This document shows positions 4,002 to 14,468 of a DNA stretch of 64,000 nucleotides, piece by piece. Each line of letters starts with the position of its first letter. The stretch's first letter is position 1. This stretch comes from Sedimentibacter sp. MB31-C6 (GTDB lineage Bacteria > Bacillota > Clostridia > Tissierellales > Sedimentibacteraceae): NCBI RefSeq assembly GCF_035934735.1, contig NZ_CP142396.1, positions 496,001-560,000 of the forward strand. The letters are read 5' to 3'. Below the pieces are notes generated by a model. That model worked only from the letters and a program-made list of their open reading frames with translations, was not told where the DNA came from and made no database searches. A program made the position numbers and the translations under genes.

Positions 4002-4868
4002 TTATATTTTTGTATATTTATAATTTTCTACTTCTTCGTATAGATTTTTTATTACTTTTTCAAATAATACTCCCTCTGAACTAGAAGTTTGAGCTTTATG
4101 TGTAACTAATACAGCGTTAGATACAAATCTTGAAGACTTTTCTAAAGCTTCTGGTAATTTTTTATCATTAAACAAGTACCCAACAAATAGTGCTGTAAAC
4201 AAGTCTCCTGTTCCTGGATATCTGGTTTCAACATAATCAAATGGAATTTTCCAAAATTCATTACTTTTTTTATCAAAACAAACGTTAATATGCTCGCCTT
4301 CTTCTGTAGTTACACCAGTTATAACAATTATTCTAGGCCCCATATCACCTAGTTTTTTTAAATATAATTTGAGATTTTCAATGCTCATATGTTCATTACA
4401 GTATCTCTTTTTAAGCAAAATACTTGCTTCTGTTAAATTTGGTGTTATTATATCTGCTTTACGTACAAGTTGATTCATTTTATTTATCATATTTTCTGTA
4501 TAGGTTTTATAAGTTAAACCATGGTCTCCCATTACAGGGTCAACAACTATAAGAGCATCATTTTTTAATTTAACATTTTCAATTATATCCATCATTATAT
4601 TGATTTGTTTCTCTGAACCTATGAATCCACTATAAACGCAATCAAATGTTTCATTGTTTTTTTCCCAGGCATTATAATATTTTTTCATATGCTCAGTAAA
4701 ATCATAGAAATAAAATTCTTTATATTCTGAATGATTACTAAGAATCGCAGTAGGCAAAGGACATACTTGACACCCTAACGCTGACATAATTGGTAGTATC
4801 ACTGTCATGGAGCATCTGCCAACGCCTGACATATCATGAATTGCAGCAACTTTCGGTATAATCCTCAT
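4002..4868 (-). CDS. pdxY: Pyridoxamine/pyridoxal kinase (PdxY-like)
   Basis: This ribokinase-family enzyme phosphorylates pyridoxal or pyridoxamine in vitamin B6 salvage. The N-terminal IHDMSGVGRCSMTVILP segment binds substrate, LIVVDPVMGDHG is the Mg/ATP-region motif, and PGTGDLFTALFVGYL near residue 220 carries the GTGD catalytic aspartate. The 288-residue length is typical. It stands alone between two gaps, with the guaB terminator upstream. Activity on pyridoxine or on hydroxymethylpyrimidine cannot be excluded. Confidence 0.88.
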   Translation of the reverse strand: MRIIPKVAAIHDMSGVGRCSMTVILPIMSALGCQVCPLPTAILSNHSEYKEFYFYDFTEHMKKYYNAWEKNNETFDCVYSGFIGSEKQINIMMDIIENVKLKNDALIVVDPVMGDHGLTYKTYTENMINKMNQLVRKADIITPNLTEASILLKKRYCNEHMSIENLKLYLKKLGDMGPRIIVITGVTTEEGEHINVCFDKKSNEFWKIPFDYVETRYPGTGDLFTALFVGYLFNDKKLPEALEKSSRFVSNAVLVTHKAQTSSSEGVLFEKVIKNLYEEVENYKYTKI

Positions 4869-5011: not shown

Positions 5012-6502
5012 TTATTGATTTTTCAAAATTACATCATGTGCTGAACCTTCTGATATACTAGTTGAAGAAACTAAAACTAGTCTACCTTTTTCCTGAAGAT
5101 CTTTAATTGATATTGCTCCACAATTACACATAGTTGACTTAATTTTATGAAGAGTTGTTCCTAAACCATCATCAAGTTTACCAGCATAAGGTACATACGA
5201 ATCTACACCTTCTTCAAATTGGAGTCCTGCTTTACCACCTAAATCATATCTAGTCCAATTTCTTGCTCTGTTAGATCCTTCTCCCCAATATTCCTTAACG
5301 AATCCATTGCCATATCTAATTTTCGCAGTTGGACTTTCATCAAAACCAGCAAAATATCTACCAAGCATAACAAAATCTGCTCCCATAGCTAATGCTAAAG
5401 TCACATGATAATCTTGTACAATGCCTCCATCAGAACAAATTGGTACATATATGCCTGTTTCCTCAAAATATTCATTTCGTGCAGCTGAAACATCTAATAC
5501 AGATGAAGCTTGACCTCTACCTATACCTTTTTGTTCCCTGGTAATACAAATAGAACCACCACCAATTCCTATTTTCACAAAATCAGCACCAGCATCTGCC
5601 AAATATCTAAATCCTTCTCTTTCTACTACATTTCCAGCTCCTACTTTAACCTTCCCATTATATTCTTGTTTAATCCATTTGATTGTTTCAGCCTGCCATT
5701 CACTAAATCCTTCAGATGAATCAATACACAAAATATCTGCTCCTGCTTCAACTAATGCTGGGACCCTTTCCTTATAATCTCTTGAATTAATTCCTGCTCC
5801 TACTACGTAACTTTTTTGTTTATCTAATAATGATCTTGGATTTTCCTTATCTTCAGAATAATCTTTTCTAAAAACCATATAAACTAAATTAAATTCATCA
5901 TCTACAATCGGTACAGAATTCAATTTATGTTCCCAAATAATATTATTTGCTTCAGTTAATGTAATTCCTTCTTTTCCAACTTTAAGAGAATCTGCCTTTG
6001 TCATGAAATCCTTGACCTTCTTATCAAGAGGGTCTCTAGTAGTTCTATAGTCCCTTCCTGTTACAACGCCTAAGAGTTTACCTGTAGCAGTACCATCCTC
6101 AGTAATAGCCATTGTGGAATGGCCAGTTTTCTCCTTTATCTCAAGTACATCCTTAAGAGTATGCTCTGGAGTTAAATTCGAATCACTGATTACAAATCCA
6201 GCTTTATATTTTTTAACCTTTCTAACCATATCTGCTTCACTTTCAATTGACTGAGAACCATATATAAATGAAATTCCACCGTTCTTTGCTAATGCAATGG
6301 CTAAATTATTATCTGAAACTGATTGCATTATAGCTGATGAGAATGGAATGTTAAGTTTCAAATCAGGTGTTTCACCTTTTTTGAATCTTGTTATTGGTGT
6401 GCTTAAATCTACATTTTCAACTACACATTCTTTAGTAGTTAGATTTGGTAATAGTAAATACTCTCCAAAAGTTCTGGAAGGCTCATGTATTATTTTTGCC
6501 AT
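5012..6502 (-). CDS. guaB: IMP dehydrogenase
   Basis: This enzyme oxidises IMP to XMP with NAD, the committed step of GMP synthesis. The TIM barrel is interrupted by a CBS pair (about residues 95-215). The catalytic loop [18 protein letters not shown] places the nucleophile at Cys319. The flap region [14 protein letters not shown] (about 408-422) and the C-terminal STMCNCGA differ from the usual bacterial YRGMGS flap. They resemble, from memory, the enzyme of the protozoan Tritrichomonas foetus and its bacterial relatives. The ATG follows AAGGAG. It is monocistronic, with its own promoter and terminator. Confidence 0.95.
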
Positions 6503-7280: not shown

Positions 7281-8330
7281 TTATTCTTCAATACATTTTC
7301 TTATGTTTTTTGCGAACTCTGCTGCTTTTTCTTTTATATTGTCGACTCCCTTTATTTCACCAATATCATTTGCAGTTTCCATTAAAGCAAATTTAGGTGG
7401 TAACATGAAAGTTTTATTAATATTTAAGGCACTTATTAATTGTTGTGCCAATATATCACTTCCACTATGACCTGATACTATAATAGAAAATATATACTTG
7501 TCATAAAATTTAACCTTTCTAAATAAGGCAGTCAATCTATTTATAGCAGCTGACATATTTGCACTTATTGCGTCATTATAGTTAGGACACAACATAATAA
7601 GTATGTCACAGTCAATTATAGCAGGATATATTTCTTCTACCATAATCCCACCATAAAAACAATTTGTACTTTCTGAATAATGCTTACATGCCTTATATGA
7701 ACATGCTTTACAATCATGAATAGAACCATTTTCTATATGTATTTCATTTATATTATAATCCTTCAAATTATCTTTAACCATTTTCCACAAAAGTAAAGTA
7801 TTAGATGTTGTATAATTGCTTGAATGTAATGTAAGTATATTAGGATTTCTAATTTTTTTAACATTATAATTCATAAGGGCATTAACAGTTTTTTTGCAAT
7901 CTTGCAAACAAATTTCATATAAGCTCATATCATGTATTTTTTTATATGTATTGTAATTTTTCAGAGAGCCTGTTGCTTCAGACAATGGTCTGCCAGGAAA
8001 AATGCATCCAGCATTATTTGCATGAAAAATTATTTTTCGTCCAATATCTCTAGAATATAATTCATTTTTGACATTAACGATTACTGAACCTACAGAGTTT
8101 TCCATAAAGTTATCCCCTGACTTTATTATTTTTTCTAAAAATCTGTATAGTTCAATATTTATTCCCGATTCACCTAATTCCACTACAAATAAAATTTTCT
8201 TGTTTTTTAAATTTACTATTTCATTACTAGTTTTAATTAAATCATATTCATATCCTTCTAGCGCAAACAGTAGCATATTATGAAGTCGTTCTGACACTTC
8301 CCCTGGCATCAATACAGTTAAATTTTCCAT
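7281..8330 (-). CDS. Flavodoxin-like / NADPH-dependent FMN reductase-type protein with cysteine cluster
   Basis: The protein has about 349 residues. Residues 1-155 match nothing I recognise. Residues 163-345 look like the flavodoxin-like NAD(P)H-dependent FMN reductase or iron-sulfur flavoprotein fold: a beta strand and phosphate-binding-type loop (ILTLHSSNYTTSNT), a C-x2-C-x4-C-x7-C cluster (CKACSYKACKHYSESTNC), and the CPNYNDAISANMSAAINR helix typical of these families. It is the last gene of the operon headed by the 1623-residue fusion, 40 bp after the dehydrogenase-like gene. A redox role in that system is inferred. The ATG at 8330 follows GAAGGGG; a TTG at 8333 would add one residue. Confidence 0.65.
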   Translation of the reverse strand: MENLTVLMPGEVSERLHNMLLFALEGYEYDLIKTSNEIVNLKNKKILFVVELGESGINIELYRFLEKIIKSGDNFMENSVGSVIVNVKNELYSRDIGRKIIFHANNAGCIFPGRPLSEATGSLKNYNTYKKIHDMSLYEICLQDCKKTVNALMNYNVKKIRNPNILTLHSSNYTTSNTLLLWKMVKDNLKDYNINEIHIENGSIHDCKACSYKACKHYSESTNCFYGGIMVEEIYPAIIDCDILIMLCPNYNDAISANMSAAINRLTALFRKVKFYDKYIFSIIVSGHSGSDILAQQLISALNINKTFMLPPKFALMETANDIGEIKGVDNIKEKAAEFAKNIRKCIEE

Positions 8331-8370
8331 CAAAAGCCCCTTCTTTTAAAATTATAAAAACTAAGTAGAA

Positions 8371-9597
8371 CTAATAACAATTATTCTGCATTTTCAATTG
8401 ACTATTATATGTCTTTTCAATCCTGTTATACAATTCTTCAGGCATATTAATTTTTTCAATTTCTAGCCCAATTGGCAAATTTCTATTTTTAGATCCCATA
8501 TAAACACCACCTATATAATTAGAACTGTAGTGCCACTTTCCCTCCAATGTAGATATAATTGATATAGCCCCTGATGATAAAGCTGGAGCTACAAATGGTT
8601 TAAAACCTGTTTTTCTGACTTTAAGATTTGCCTCAACTGTGAGTTTTGTCAGCTCTTTAGATATTATATCATTATAATTAGTTATACTATCAGCTATTAC
8701 TAATTCATTACCATGAGGTCCATATGCCCTCCCCTCTAACAAATATTGAGAATATTTATTATTACTTCTAGCATAATAAGCTGCCCTAGCATTCATAACC
8801 CCTAATCCATATCCTTTAATTTGTTCAGGTGCCAATTTACCTTTACTTGCCATTAATACTGAATTACATAACAAATCAACTGGATCTGATACAACAGAAA
8901 ATATACCCTTAAAGTTACTCTCAGCAGCCATGACGGCATATTCTTTAATAAGCTTGGAATTTTCTTCGAATTGAACCATCCTAACATCTGAAATTTCCGA
9001 GCCAACTGGTGGAACACCTTTTGAAGCACAAAAAACGAACATATCACAATCAAACAATTCATCTTTTTTAATTCCATGTACAAGTGGTAATACTTCATAG
9101 TCTATAGGTAGACATGTTTGATTCATTTCGTATTCCCATCTTTTAATTTTATCTGAACTTCTGTCAAATATGCCTATTGATTCAATGCAATTTCCTCCTA
9201 ATAATTTAAGTCCAATAAGTAAAGTGCTTCCTACATCACCTAAAGCTAATATGTTAATCCTTTTTTTTCTCTTTTCTCCTACAAAAAACGACTTCTCAAA
9301 ATCATCGAATTCAGTGTTAACTGCTTTAATTTTCTTCTCTTTTATAAGTATTTTTATATCTTTAGGTATATCTAAATTTATATCTTTCAACTTAAGAACT
9401 TCTAAATTTTCTTCATCTATTAATAAATCTGACTCATGAGTAACAGCAAATGTTCTTTTCGATTTATTTTTTCCTAACTTAGTCAAGAAATAAATCTCAT
9501 TACAGTTGCTAAATACTTCACTTTCATTTGCTTTTTCCATGGAATATTTATCTTTTAGTGATAATAAATATTTATCTTTATATTTATAATAAAACAT
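8371..9597 (-). CDS. Lactate/malate dehydrogenase-like protein with long N-terminal extension
   Basis: The 408-residue protein has about 110 extra residues before an LDH/MDH-type core. The Rossmann motif is ALGDVGST (118-125), the NPVD equivalent is SDPVD (237-241), the substrate-arginine region is NAR (269-271), and the catalytic histidine is in GPHGNE (His295). Two positions differ from true LDH/MDH: the asparagine of NPVD is Asp, and the aspartate that pairs with the catalytic histidine appears as Asn269. Its ATG overlaps the stop of the upstream fusion gene (TAATG), implying coupled translation. A substrate other than lactate or malate, or a non-catalytic NAD-binding role, is likely. Confidence 0.7.
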   Translation of the reverse strand: MFYYKYKDKYLLSLKDKYSMEKANESEVFSNCNEIYFLTKLGKNKSKRTFAVTHESDLLIDEENLEVLKLKDINLDIPKDIKILIKEKKIKAVNTEFDDFEKSFFVGEKRKKRINILALGDVGSTLLIGLKLLGGNCIESIGIFDRSSDKIKRWEYEMNQTCLPIDYEVLPLVHGIKKDELFDCDMFVFCASKGVPPVGSEISDVRMVQFEENSKLIKEYAVMAAESNFKGIFSVVSDPVDLLCNSVLMASKGKLAPEQIKGYGLGVMNARAAYYARSNNKYSQYLLEGRAYGPHGNELVIADSITNYNDIISKELTKLTVEANLKVRKTGFKPFVAPALSSGAISIISTLEGKWHYSSNYIGGVYMGSKNRNLPIGLEIEKINMPEELYNRIEKTYNSQLKMQNNCY

Positions 9598-12500
9598 TAT
9601 TTTATTATCCTTTCAAGTTTACTTAAATTTTCTATACTTACATTCATATAACTAGAGGCTTCTGTATTAAAATCATAATATATATTTTTACCTAAATACG
9701 GTAACCTTGGTGATACTAGAACTTCGCCAAGTCTTTTTACAGTGAGATTTTTTTCATAAATATTCTGATATTCTGATTCCAAAGCAAGTAATATATTTTT
9801 AGCATTTTCAAGGCATACCATTGATAAATTATAAATAGCTTCCTTTGAAGTCCCTCTAATGAACATTGGGGCGTAATATGGTAATATGAGGTTTAATGAT
9901 GGTATTAAATTAAGAGTATTCTCCAAATCTGAATCAATGCCATCTCCTCCTAAAAATGGATACATGAGATTCTCGTTGAACCATAACCTTAAATTAGGTA
10001 TAAAATAAGCACTGTCTATATCTCTTTCTTGTATATCCATTAGATCCTTACCTCTGCCGGACATTATTCCAACAATAATTTTTTCAACTTTTATATCATG
10101 TTTTTTTAGAATAGGATCAATTTCCTTAATTCTATAACCTTTATGAAGTATATCATCTACTAATATAACAGGTCTATTGAAAGATTTGATAGTTTTAACT
10201 TGATTATCTATAGGAGAATAAAAAGGGTATTCATTTATTTTAAATTTTTTCGTGTCAGTACTATATACCTTTTCTGTATGTAGTGATTTAGTTACTGTAT
10301 TAGGTATTACTGTCCCCTTTAATATATTACCAAATGGAACACACATATATTCCCCTAATATTTTCGGATTTTCCAACATATCATCATTAATATTATTCAT
10401 ACTTGAAATTTTATCTATTAATGTTTGATTTATCATATCATTATCAAAGGTTAGTACTAAACTTCCAGGATATAGCTCAGTTAATGACATCTGTAAATCT
10501 TTTCTAGCTTTAATAATAGCTTCATGAATATTATCATTAGTATTAAAAGGCTCCTTAATAAAGCTTTTAAGATCTAAAGTAAGGCATATTGGGAACTTCA
10601 TATCTACTGCATAGACTGTTTTTTTGGAATCATTTTCAATAATTTTTTGAAAACCTTGAAGTTCTAAAGTTTCTATTACTTCATCTGAACTTAAATTAGA
10701 CATATTATTATAGTATAAGGCGTATGTAAAATCATTTTGTAAACAATAAGCTAAAGTTTCAGTAAGTAAAACTTGCTCCATATAATCATAAATCTTACTT
10801 GGATTTACAAAAATACCATCTAAAACTATAATTCGTCCAGCTGTTTTTTCTCTTACATAGTCAGCAATATATTGACTTTTAAACTCTGAATAAACTTTTG
10901 ATGAACTTATCTTATGGAATGCCGTAAAACCTAATAATTTATTAGAATTTCTACTATCCCTAATTACTAAGAGTTTTATATTTTTAGAAATAAGTTCCTC
11001 TCCTATATTTTCATAAAGATTTGTATGCATAAAAATATAATGTCCTATTTCATCTACAATACTTTTACTTAGGTCATCTATTATTTCTATATTAAATGGT
11101 CTTGACTTTAACACGCTTTTATACTGAGGTTCTCTAATATATAAGTTTCTTTCATAAATGAAACTTTGCGCTAAAGGATCAATCAAATTGGTAATATCTC
11201 TATTATTATCAATATGATCTCTAATTTGTGTTGAACTTATATCCTCTAAATAAACTGGTAGCTGTAACTCAACAACATTACCTTTAATTTTATTTTTAGT
11301 TTCTTCTGCTTTCTTAATATAGTTTACTGATAAATCATCTAATGCCCTTTTGAATACTATATGATTAAAGCTGTGAATGGAATTTTTAGTAGGTCTTGCT
11401 TTATAGGCAGATGCATTTAATATTACATCACTACCAGCAACCATAAAAATATTATTATTAGGGAATAAAGCTTTCAGCTTTTTTAAATCTTCTGAACTTG
11501 ATAAGTTAACAGGTATATTGTCTGGAAACAAATAAACATCAAGTTCATCTGCAATTGACATATTAATAATTTGTCTTCTAATCATTCTTGGCTGAACTCT
11601 TTTAGACCATGAAAATTCATCTACTGCCAAGTATACTATAAATCCTAAATTTCTGATTTCAGTAACAATACCCTTATGACTTAAGGAAAAAGGGTCAAAT
11701 GTTCCAGGGAAATATGCTATATTTTTATGTTCCATAATTTCAAATTCTCCATAAAAAAATGCATAATCACTAATAAATCTATAAATATGATTAAAGGAAG
11801 CTGAATTGTTAAAGAAAAACAAATCACTTAATTCTTTTTCATTAATTAATGTCAAGAGTTTCTTGGAAATACCCATGAAAATTTTATTTTTTTGTTTTAA
11901 ATCCAATTTCTTTGAGTTAAAAATATATTGCCCTATGACCAAAAATGTCTCTAATTTAACTTGAATATTATAATTAGCTAGTCCGCTTAATATTATCCCT
12001 AACACCTTTACTAATCTCTTATTATAATCTTTTTCAGTTTCTTCAAATTTACCTTCATACTCTGGATAATACTGAATCATAATACCAAAAGTATCAATAG
12101 CTAAAGCACTTGCTCTTTCATTCGAGCCCTTGTAAATATTTTTTAAATCAATAATAAACTCATTTAACTCTTTCGGATGTAAAAGCATTACAAAGCGACC
12201 TAAATATTCAGGAATATATTTTGCATACTGCAGCTCATCAATTTCTAAACCTTTAAGCAATTCTAAAGATATTTCATTTCTTTGGTCATTTGTTAATAAA
12301 GACCCTATTTCTACAAGTGCATTTCCTGCTTTATTCCTTACAGACTCCTTTGCACTTACTTTTACTAAATTAGTTAAATGTGTCGCAGTTTGAAGTAAAG
12401 TAACTTTATTTTTATCAGTTATATTATCTATAATAAAATCAATGCTTATTGTCTTAAAATTCCAAGGCGTAGCAGCTTTTAAATTGTTTAAAAACAATTC

Positions 12501-14468
12501 TGATGTCTTATTTATATTTCCATTAATTAAATTGTTATATTTAAGTTTAATTTCTTCTGACATATTTAATTTTTGTCCTATTTTCCCCTTTAAAAAATTT
12601 ATACATAAATCATCTGATTCAGAAACATTATTTATAAATTCTCTAATTGGGTTAAAGGAAATAGCTACATCATCTTTTTGTTTAACTAAACAATACAAAA
12701 ACTGTACTGACATAAGTCTTACATCTTCAGCAGGATTATCTATTTCCTTTAAAGCGAAATTCATTAGTTTGCCAACTTGAACAGACTCGCAATCTTTCAT
12801 AGGTACACTAAGCAAACTATTTAATAAATTAAGAGTAGCTATATAATCATTTTCTTTGTTGTTAAAATAATTAAACAAAATATCTAAATAACATTTTTTA
12901 TCTTTACCAATACAATTAGTTAATAGCGAATCAACAAAGATTCTCAATGAGTAACCAATCCATTCTTTATGTTGATCCGTTACCTTATGGTCAGGTTTTA
13001 AAAATAATCCCAAGTATTTATCCCATAAATCTAAGCTATTTATTTCCTCATTAAATGACAACTTTACATCTTCAGGTAATTCCTTTTTAAAATCAACATC
13101 AAAAGATATTATAATTTTACCCATTATACTTGCAGCTTGGCGACGAATATCCCCTTCCCTGTTTATCAACAATTCATATAAAAAGTTTAATGTAAATAAT
13201 TTTTGTTTTTGAGATAAGTAAGTAGAGTATTCTTCGATAATGTTAAGATATGACCTTACATTCTTCCAATTCTTTTCACTTCTTGCAGCTTCAATAATAT
13301 TGGCAAAGGAAACATCATTATTTAATTTACTCATTAAAGATGTATTATGTTCAATTGCCATATATCTAAAACTATCAATAACCTCATATCCATCAACAAG
13401 AGCATAATCAGATTTGCCATTAGGATTAGGTTCATTTGAACTAAAATCTATGTTTATCCCTTTAAAAATAAGGTAATTTTCAAAGTCTTTAAGTTTAGAA
13501 TAAACTCTAATATATCTTTTTTCTTTAGCTTCATCAACATTATCTAATTTATCAAGAATAATTTGAAATGAGTCATTTAAATCATATATATTCATTTCTA
13601 TTCCATGCTTTGTAGTTTTATTTTTAACTCTAAAATCTGCATATATTAAAATCAAAGTTTCTAATGGCAAATTTTCCAGTTCTAAATCCCATGTTGAATG
13701 ATTAGCTGCTATCAATGCAAGACTTGGCATGTTATTTTTCATTAGCCACTGGTCTGTATAATAATAATGTAAGTATGCTACTCTTGTTTTTTCCAAACCT
13801 TTGCACCCATATTTTCCTATATCATGTCCAGCAGCTGCTCCAGATACTAACCCTAAATTAACATGACTTCCCACCTTATGAAGTTGTCTACCAATATGCA
13901 TTGCTACATAATGAACTGCAGCAACATGATTTAAAGTGTTGTAACCATTTACTTCAGCATCTATCATCATAAGTTCATATATATACTTTTTATTATAGGT
14001 TTCAATAAAAGTTAAATATTCCTCTGGATTTGTAAGTTCTTTTATCTCATCTTCAGATAAAAATTGGAATTGTGAAAATTTATCAAAATTTCGGCTTTTT
14101 TTCTCGTGTATAACTATAGTTCTCAATATTTCTAAATAAATTTGAACTGCATTTTCATATTTAGGATTTAATCTTATTGTAACGGCATCTGGAAAAGATA
14201 AGTGTAATGTATGTTGAAATATGTAAAATAACCAATCTTTTGGTTGTTCGGCACATAAACTGTTAAAAATATCTGAGGTTAGATTTAACACATCCTTACA
14301 GATAGATTCCTTGCTATTTATAAATATACGCAAGTTATTTACAAATTTCTTATTAATAATAAATGATTGTATTTTTTCTTCAGAAATCTTTATACGTTTT
14401 AAAAAATCTTTATGTGTTAATCTTTGGAGTATATCTTTATGTAATTCATTTAGTAATAATCTACTCAT
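9597..14468 (-). CDS. Giant fusion: HD hydrolase + helical repeats + NadD-like nucleotidyltransferase + GNAT-like + PRTase-like domain
   Basis: This 1623-residue soluble protein combines several nucleotide-related modules. An HD phosphohydrolase domain has GHDIGK with His215/Asp216 and a later NHS near 258. Residues about 400-890 form an alpha-helical, HEAT/ARM-like array. A cytidylyl/adenylyltransferase domain of the NadD type starts at PGTFDPFSLSHKG (Gly922) and ends with SSTQIRD (1078-1084). An acetyltransferase-like region follows (about 1110-1270). The C-terminal part has a type I phosphoribosyltransferase-like motif, VDDILHKGYR (1437-1446). The ATG follows GAGGTG. It heads a three-gene operon and is divergent from an FAH-family gene. 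I do not know a characterised homologue; NAD or nucleotide metabolism is the natural guess. Confidence 0.72.
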   Translation of the reverse strand: MSRLLLNELHKDILQRLTHKDFLKRIKISEEKIQSFIINKKFVNNLRIFINSKESICKDVLNLTSDIFNSLCAEQPKDWLFYIFQHTLHLSFPDAVTIRLNPKYENAVQIYLEILRTIVIHEKKSRNFDKFSQFQFLSEDEIKELTNPEEYLTFIETYNKKYIYELMMIDAEVNGYNTLNHVAAVHYVAMHIGRQLHKVGSHVNLGLVSGAAAGHDIGKYGCKGLEKTRVAYLHYYYTDQWLMKNNMPSLALIAANHSTWDLELENLPLETLILIYADFRVKNKTTKHGIEMNIYDLNDSFQIILDKLDNVDEAKEKRYIRVYSKLKDFENYLIFKGINIDFSSNEPNPNGKSDYALVDGYEVIDSFRYMAIEHNTSLMSKLNNDVSFANIIEAARSEKNWKNVRSYLNIIEEYSTYLSQKQKLFTLNFLYELLINREGDIRRQAASIMGKIIISFDVDFKKELPEDVKLSFNEEINSLDLWDKYLGLFLKPDHKVTDQHKEWIGYSLRIFVDSLLTNCIGKDKKCYLDILFNYFNNKENDYIATLNLLNSLLSVPMKDCESVQVGKLMNFALKEIDNPAEDVRLMSVQFLYCLVKQKDDVAISFNPIREFINNVSESDDLCINFLKGKIGQKLNMSEEIKLKYNNLINGNINKTSELFLNNLKAATPWNFKTISIDFIIDNITDKNKVTLLQTATHLTNLVKVSAKESVRNKAGNALVEIGSLLTNDQRNEISLELLKGLEIDELQYAKYIPEYLGRFVMLLHPKELNEFIIDLKNIYKGSNERASALAIDTFGIMIQYYPEYEGKFEETEKDYNKRLVKVLGIILSGLANYNIQVKLETFLVIGQYIFNSKKLDLKQKNKIFMGISKKLLTLINEKELSDLFFFNNSASFNHIYRFISDYAFFYGEFEIMEHKNIAYFPGTFDPFSLSHKGIVTEIRNLGFIVYLAVDEFSWSKRVQPRMIRRQIINMSIADELDVYLFPDNIPVNLSSSEDLKKLKALFPNNNIFMVAGSDVILNASAYKARPTKNSIHSFNHIVFKRALDDLSVNYIKKAEETKNKIKGNVVELQLPVYLEDISSTQIRDHIDNNRDITNLIDPLAQSFIYERNLYIREPQYKSVLKSRPFNIEIIDDLSKSIVDEIGHYIFMHTNLYENIGEELISKNIKLLVIRDSRNSNKLLGFTAFHKISSSKVYSEFKSQYIADYVREKTAGRIIVLDGIFVNPSKIYDYMEQVLLTETLAYCLQNDFTYALYYNNMSNLSSDEVIETLELQGFQKIIENDSKKTVYAVDMKFPICLTLDLKSFIKEPFNTNDNIHEAIIKARKDLQMSLTELYPGSLVLTFDNDMINQTLIDKISSMNNINDDMLENPKILGEYMCVPFGNILKGTVIPNTVTKSLHTEKVYSTDTKKFKINEYPFYSPIDNQVKTIKSFNRPVILVDDILHKGYRIKEIDPILKKHDIKVEKIIVGIMSGRGKDLMDIQERDIDSAYFIPNLRLWFNENLMYPFLGGDGIDSDLENTLNLIPSLNLILPYYAPMFIRGTSKEAIYNLSMVCLENAKNILLALESEYQNIYEKNLTVKRLGEVLVSPRLPYLGKNIYYDFNTEASSYMNVSIENLSKLERIIK

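Follow-up and report, generated by a model that had tools for sequence, protein, structure and literature searches.

A 64,000-nucleotide stretch of the Sedimentibacter sp. MB31-C6 chromosome (the window; contig NZ_CP142396.1, positions 496,001 to 560,000) encodes on its reverse strand a giant composite protein of 1623 amino acids (9597..14468), which heads a tight unit with a lactate dehydrogenase (LDH)-like gene (8371..9597) and a flavoprotein gene (7281..8333), in that order. We tentatively favor the reading that the giant and its two partners constitute one undescribed module in which a nucleotide cofactor is adenylylated, edited and processed by redox chemistry. A protein of ~1,620 residues with five nucleotide/cofactor folds, maintained at full length in many families and accompanied by two redox genes, points strongly to an uncharacterized metabolic function. 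The single open frame with its ATG start, and the motifs at His215/Asp216, 922 (GTFDPF), 1078 (SSTQIRD) and 1437 (VDD), are as given in a preliminary description made from the sequence alone. All features of the unit described below lie on the reverse strand.

The open reading frame (ORF) of the giant is real and old. Mutually alignable frames of 1568-1640 amino acids occur at 48 loci, the window being one of them, with identities to the window protein as low as 32%; a relative in S. hydroxybenzoicus shares 71% identity across residues 1-1620 in the genome scan. These long relatives rule out a chance frame or an annotation artefact. Among 61 genomes, comprising the window's own (3.02 Mb, two contigs) and 60 relatives, 54 gave a match at an E-value of 1e-3; the giant or pieces of it are present in 49, and the five further matches are ordinary NadD-type proteins only. 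At the strict cut-off of 1e-30, the giant was found in 65 of 199 genomes of the order, requested at a completeness of at least 90%, and in 8 of 398 genomes of the phylum, six of which fall outside the order while two are the window's own genome and one other of the same order. Searches of Pfam and NCBIfam returned no full-length match, and the open-licence literature yielded no description of the architecture or of the three-gene unit, in agreement with the preliminary description, which knew of no enzyme with this order of modules. Each fold is known, and it is the five-part architecture and the three-gene unit that are apparently undescribed in that literature. The conservation analyses rest on 48 sequences longer than 1500 amino acids, 44 of them distinct. 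Alignment A1 holds 31 and omits one degenerate sequence (L033, discussed below) and 16 others, mostly close relatives of a retained row or from the same genome; L018, cut by a contig end, and L019 (1433 amino acids) fall below the length limit.

Three of the modules named in the preliminary description, the HD, helical-repeat and nucleotidyltransferase modules, have clear sequence support from Pfam, invariant motifs and hhalign. The HD phosphohydrolase domain (residues 150-345; 13434..14021) contains an HDIGK motif (residues 215-219; 13812..13826), and H181, H215, D216, K219, H234, H257 and D278 are invariant. H181, H215, D216 and D278 form the H...HD...D metal-binding motif of the HD superfamily in all 31 sequences of A1. 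The Pfam HD profile matches 24/31 members at E-values up to 1 (best 9e-8), the window member alone reaching 13.2 bits, below the cut-off of 22 bits.

The NadD/NMNAT-like nucleotidyltransferase domain (residues 912-1115; 11124..11735) scores 21.8 bits against Pfam PF01467 (cut-off 21) and aligns with the genome's own NadD at an hhalign probability of 96.6% over 185 columns. Its signatures are GTFDPFSLSH (residues 922-931; 11676..11705) and SSTQIR (residues 1078-1083; 11220..11237), which take the forms GxFDPF[ST]xxH and SSxxIR in A1 and, with the Pfam score, place the domain in the nucleotidylyltransferase superfamily. The preliminary description had called this signature intact; the GxFDPF and SSTxIR elements are indeed present, but Ser or Thr stands in place of the first His of bacterial HxGH in 44/44 distinct aligned sequences. 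The Thr form of the (H/T)xxH signature is known from human NMNAT. Besides L033 there are 43 distinct sequences, and none of them deviates at the seven HD positions or at the NMNAT signature positions checked, of which 928 may be Ser or Thr.

The NMNAT-like domain does not look like a canonical NadD. It misses the curated cut-offs for that enzyme (NF000840, 40.8 versus 150 bits; TIGR00482, 38.8 versus 112 bits), and the PPHK substrate motif, found in both NadD proteins of the genome, is absent from the giant family, which mostly has DEFSWSK there. Those two canonical genes encode a 373-residue NadD-YqeK fusion (L072:7769-8890, reverse strand) and a second NadD of 199 residues (L073:6328-6927, reverse strand). 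Their presence rules out the giant as the sole NadD of the genome and thus makes it an additional system. Near the shorter NadD gene lie genes for a 425-residue protein possibly akin to LarA-type racemases and for another possibly akin to MogA; the surroundings are perhaps another pyridine-nucleotide-linked cluster.

The linkage of the giant to its partners is nearly constant. Order and strand of the three genes are maintained in 32 of 34 loci, while the flanking genes vary; the 34 loci represent 33 distinct places, L002 and L057 being apparently one contig, and the count of 32 includes L054, whose LDH-like gene was missed by the ORF picker and recovered by a later search. Of the two exceptions, G384 has its partners together on another contig. 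Spacing was taken from mechanically picked starts at 31 listed loci, with L033 set aside. The flavoprotein gene overlaps the LDH-like gene in 24 of them, 21 times by 4 bases; between the giant and LDH-like genes there is overlap in 10 and a gap of at most 91 bases in the rest. In the window, the ATG of the LDH-like gene overlaps the stop codon of the giant gene as TAATG.

Co-occurrence across genomes follows the same pattern. In the order sample (partner cut-off 1e-20), the giant was present in 65 genomes, the LDH-like protein in 63 and the flavoprotein in 62, and comparison of the listed positives showed the smaller sets nested in the larger, so that every genome positive for a partner has the giant. 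The giant-positive genomes without the LDH-like protein are G002, where the giant match reaches the contig end, and G025; those without the flavoprotein are the same two and G591, in which the LDH-like match is cut short, probably by a contig end. In the phylum sample, which was searched for the giant and, at a cut-off of 1e-15, for the LDH-like protein, the two occur in the same 8 genomes. Eight genomes lacking the giant contained no true copy of either partner at an E-value of 1e-3, apart from one weak match for each partner. The three proteins have diverged in step, their pairwise distances being correlated at r 0.90-0.93 over the 25 loci shared by A1 and the partner alignments A6 and A7. 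The self-contained machine considered plausible in the preliminary description, which makes no mention of the downstream genes, is not supported; two redox genes nearly always stand alongside the giant.

Alignments of the partners, covering 27 of the 34 loci (L033, L050, L054, L057, L060, L061 and L063 excluded), offer hints of their chemistry. The first partner is a member of the LDH/malate dehydrogenase superfamily with an N-terminal extension of ~110 residues, and it matches LDH structures at an E-value of 3e-8. Arg206, Arg271 and His295 are invariant in 27/27 sequences, whereas the catalytic Asn140 and Asp168 of LDH are not kept, Asp238 and Met268 standing at what we read from our alignment as the equivalent positions in 27/27. 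In LDH, the retained Arg residues serve to bind a carboxylate. Because the Arg and His residues are kept while Asp238 and Met268 replace the catalytic pair, the enzyme may handle an acid-bearing substrate through altered chemistry. The second partner is an FMN-reductase-type flavoprotein with an N-terminal extension of ~160 residues and an FMN_red domain (E-value 4e-18); a profile search at an E-value of 0.01 found no sequence match in the PDB. It contains four invariant Cys residues, with the spacing CX2CX4CX8C in 26/27 sequences, which possibly form an iron-sulfur site.

A relative that lacks the partners provides a natural experiment. Genome G025, of the same family and consisting of one contig, encodes an intact ortholog of 1597 amino acids (L033:7495-12288) that shares four adjacent upstream gene clusters with the window giant. 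DUF421 and DUF4363 are among these clusters, and the other two are presumably CarD-like and PIN/TRAM-like. No copy of the LDH-like or flavoprotein gene was found in this genome. In the ortholog, none of the seven HD residues remains and the NMNAT signature is partly lost, with 24/59 near-invariant columns kept in the HD domain and 32/56 in the NMNAT domain. The corresponding figures are 60/71 for the helical region, 6/6 for the GNAT segment, 40/46 for the phosphoribosyltransferase (PRTase) segment and 9/10 for the C-terminal region, and loss is concentrated in the HD and NMNAT domains (Fisher p 1e-10). Three residues of the phosphoribosyl pyrophosphate (PRPP) loop are changed as well. L053, the most diverged of the relatives that have the partners, shows the reverse pattern and retains 90% of the near-invariant columns in HD and 89% in NMNAT, against 57-75% in other domains; the single near-invariant column of the N-terminus is kept in both proteins. 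Because HD and NMNAT decayed in the relative that appears to lack both partners, a joint function of these domains with the redox enzymes is probable. The giant seems to divide accordingly into a catalytic pair tied to the partners and a remainder that stays under selection without them.

The two putative catalytic domains are also the best conserved, with mean pairwise identities over the 25 loci of 59.5% (HD) and 58.4% (NMNAT), followed by the PRTase segment (52.8%), the C-terminus (45.4%), the helical region (43.6%), the GNAT segment (32.9%) and the N-terminus (24.5%). The helical region is a HEAT-type repeat region (residues 346-905; 11754..13433); scanning of residues 351-905 gave Pfam HEAT matches at E-values up to 0.1 in 22/31 members (best 9e-7), the window member itself reaching an E-value of 0.09 and 13.5 bits against a cut-off of 23.5. 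Residues 1121-1290 (10599..11108) likely adopt a GNAT fold, as judged mainly from a low-confidence structure model. The preliminary description has a GNAT-like region here, but the [QR]xxGx[GA] acetyl-CoA loop is absent from the expected stretch in 31/31 members; for comparison, the same pattern occurs anywhere in the ORF in 15 of the genome's own 27 GNAT entries.

The segment that follows (residues 1291-1515; 9924..10598) is likely a type I, HPRT-like PRTase fold, to judge from weaker sequence matches and another low-confidence model. Pfam Pribosyltran was matched at E-values up to 1 in 19/31 members (best 7e-4; residues 1293-1623 scanned), and the best Foldseek matches of the model, whose pLDDT confidence is 47, were hypoxanthine-guanine PRTases with probabilities up to 0.98. 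The motif VDDILHKGYR (residues 1437-1446; 10131..10160) lies in register with the PRPP loops of 10/10 of the genome's own PRTases. A type I motif at this position had been proposed, and the tentative fold assignment agrees with it; the loop itself, mostly VDDxLxKGYR, keeps the acidic pair in most members but lacks the usual Thr/Ser in most, and its positions vary in the deep branches, so that the family mostly does not show the combination of acidic pair and Thr/Ser typical of type I enzymes. Since the catalytic loops of both segments are altered, neither phosphoribosyl nor acetyl transfer is claimed. The PRTase matches found are of the type I purine kind, although no search was aimed directly at type II. 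The PRTases of NAD salvage belong to type II.

Several known proteins resemble parts of the system. JCVISYN3A_0380 of Syn3A, a NadD-YqeK fusion, joins an HD phosphohydrolase to a NadD-type adenylyltransferase on one chain, as the giant does, and is reported to hydrolyze wrong analogs of nicotinic acid adenine dinucleotide (NaAD; PMC9426524); in Mesomycoplasma, hydrolysis of c-di-AMP by NadD-YqeK is reported (PMC12879401). The giant differs in its reversed domain order, its length (1623 residues versus 373 in the genome's own fusion), its added HEAT, GNAT-like and PRTase-like parts and its redox partners. Fusions of NMNAT to a second nucleotide enzyme are likewise described for NadM (NMNAT-Nudix) and NadR (NMNAT-kinase) (PMC9503650), but the Pfam scan of the giant shows neither a Nudix nor a kinase domain, and its architecture is another one. 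The DVU_1551 family NTP transferase profile (NF045665) matches the HD region only, through positions 197-314 of 359 (E-value 1.3e-5; 24 bits, with the cut-off at 315). Unlike hypoxanthine-guanine PRTases, the giant family mostly has other residues where the PRPP loop carries Thr/Ser, and L-lactate/malate dehydrogenases differ from the first partner in the residues at Asp238/Met268 and in its extra N-terminal region. The second partner shares its FMN_red domain with iron-sulfur flavoproteins (ISFs) and NADPH-dependent FMN reductases, but the spacing of its Cys residues differs from the compact ISF motif.

The favored reading draws these elements into one scheme, and is supported by the invariance of the HD ligands and NMNAT signature in A1, the constant gene order, the co-occurrence of the three genes, the selective decay in G025 and the precedent of NadD-YqeK fusions. 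The NMNAT-like domain would join an AMP or similar unit from a nucleoside triphosphate to a mononucleotide-like substrate, and the HD domain, as reported for YqeK with NadD, would remove by hydrolysis those phosphoanhydride or phosphoester products that are wrong or spent. Redox steps on the same compound would fall to the LDH-like enzyme and the Cys-rich flavoprotein, while the HPRT-like PRTase fold, GNAT fold and HEAT scaffold would bind or position ligands or act in regulation. Several points weigh against this scheme. The proposed reactions and substrates are all deduced. The natural experiment is a single genome, and conservation of its PRTase and GNAT segments despite the decay of HD and NMNAT implies that they may serve another role. 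Kinship between the HD domain and the genome's own YqeK is undetectable beyond the HD motif (hhalign 0.18%), and an HD domain of evident YqeK type was dismissed on that basis. Finally, the partners might act on some other metabolite and be linked to the giant by shared regulation alone. If a new cofactor is made, a set of anaerobes would possess redox chemistry that nobody has measured; if the function is repair or sensing of the NAD type, the NadD-YqeK proofreading idea would extend to a much larger machine. With three genes, invariant residues and a natural decayed relative, the question is directly testable.

A bolder form of this scheme, which we consider doubtful, holds that the unit is a complete, undescribed pathway, restricted to some anaerobic Firmicutes, for a new nucleotide cofactor such as an NAD-like dinucleotide, in which the HPRT-like PRTase, NMNAT and HD domains would make and proofread the cofactor and the two partners would use or mature it. 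Damage control for ordinary pyridine nucleotides is unlikely. The flavoprotein and LDH-like enzyme would then repair NAD(P)(H) that is damaged or wrongly reduced, the HD domain destroy bad dinucleotides and the NMNAT domain rebuild them, for which the activity of the Syn3A fusion on wrong NaAD analogs and the co-occurrence of an NMNAT-like domain with two redox partners offer some encouragement. The genome already has a NadD-YqeK fusion, however, and the Arg residues of the LDH-like protein, carboxylate binders in LDH, would be odd in an enzyme for NADH repair. NAD damage is expected in all cells, with which the patchy presence of the giant in the order is at odds. A sensor or regulator is to be regarded with similar skepticism: the NMNAT, PRTase and GNAT folds would bind nucleotides, and the HEAT region would control transcription or the redox enzymes, by analogy with NadR. 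Binding of proteins is the usual role of HEAT regions, the PRPP and acetyl-CoA loops are non-canonical, and the PRTase, GNAT, HEAT and C-terminal parts are conserved in G025 without the partners, all of which would suit such a role; but the invariance of the HD and NMNAT signature positions in the 43 other distinct sequences is what catalysis would predict, and the Pfam scan revealed no DNA-binding domain.

Still less probable is the idea of the preliminary description that the giant is a self-contained enzyme for NAD or nucleotide salvage, leading from base to dinucleotide. PRTase-like and NMNAT-like folds do occur on one chain, but the partners are nearly always present, the NadD cut-offs are missed by far and the PRTase loop varies; plain NAD salvage is unlikely because two ordinary NadD genes are present and the PRTase resembles the purine type. 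Cofactor making or cofactor sensing, the broader class that the description had in mind, remains the best class of explanation once its self-contained form is given up. Nucleotidyltransferase and HD folds are common in anti-phage systems, and the distribution of the giant is patchy, yet a nucleotide-based anti-phage or conflict system is very improbable. A PADLOC search at an E-value of 0.1 gave no match for the giant or the LDH-like protein and only weak ones for the flavoprotein (about 0.01), and a known anti-phage system was dismissed accordingly. No relative was found in viral contigs, the one plasmid-collection record with a relative is probably a mislabelled chromosome, and the parallel divergence of the three proteins also argues against this role.

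The remaining regions of the giant are the poorly conserved N-terminal region (residues 1-149; 14022..14468) and a C-terminal region without assigned fold (residues 1516-1623; 9600..9923). After the unit, on the same strand, the window encodes an IMP dehydrogenase-type protein (5012-6502; NF005493, 915 bits) and a pyridoxamine kinase (4002-4868; NF005491, 322 bits). A fixed link to either was dismissed, as the kinase gene is in no shared neighbor cluster across the 34 loci and the IMP dehydrogenase cluster lies near 5 of them in differing positions and strands. L-serine dehydratase beta and alpha genes overlap the giant gene or end at most 5 bases upstream of it in 5/34 loci (for example, L045:5955-7498, the one pair tested with Pfam, and L049:12176-13730), and a fixed link was dismissed because they are directly upstream in just these five. 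The opposite strand downstream of the unit carries a RelA/SpoT-type gene (L039:4362-5168; one copy tested with Pfam) in 11/34 loci. The record filed as a plasmid (L070) is a 2.63-Mb Acetoanaerobium noterae sequence (NZ_CP154629.1), probably the chromosome, and its relative matches 99% of the giant.

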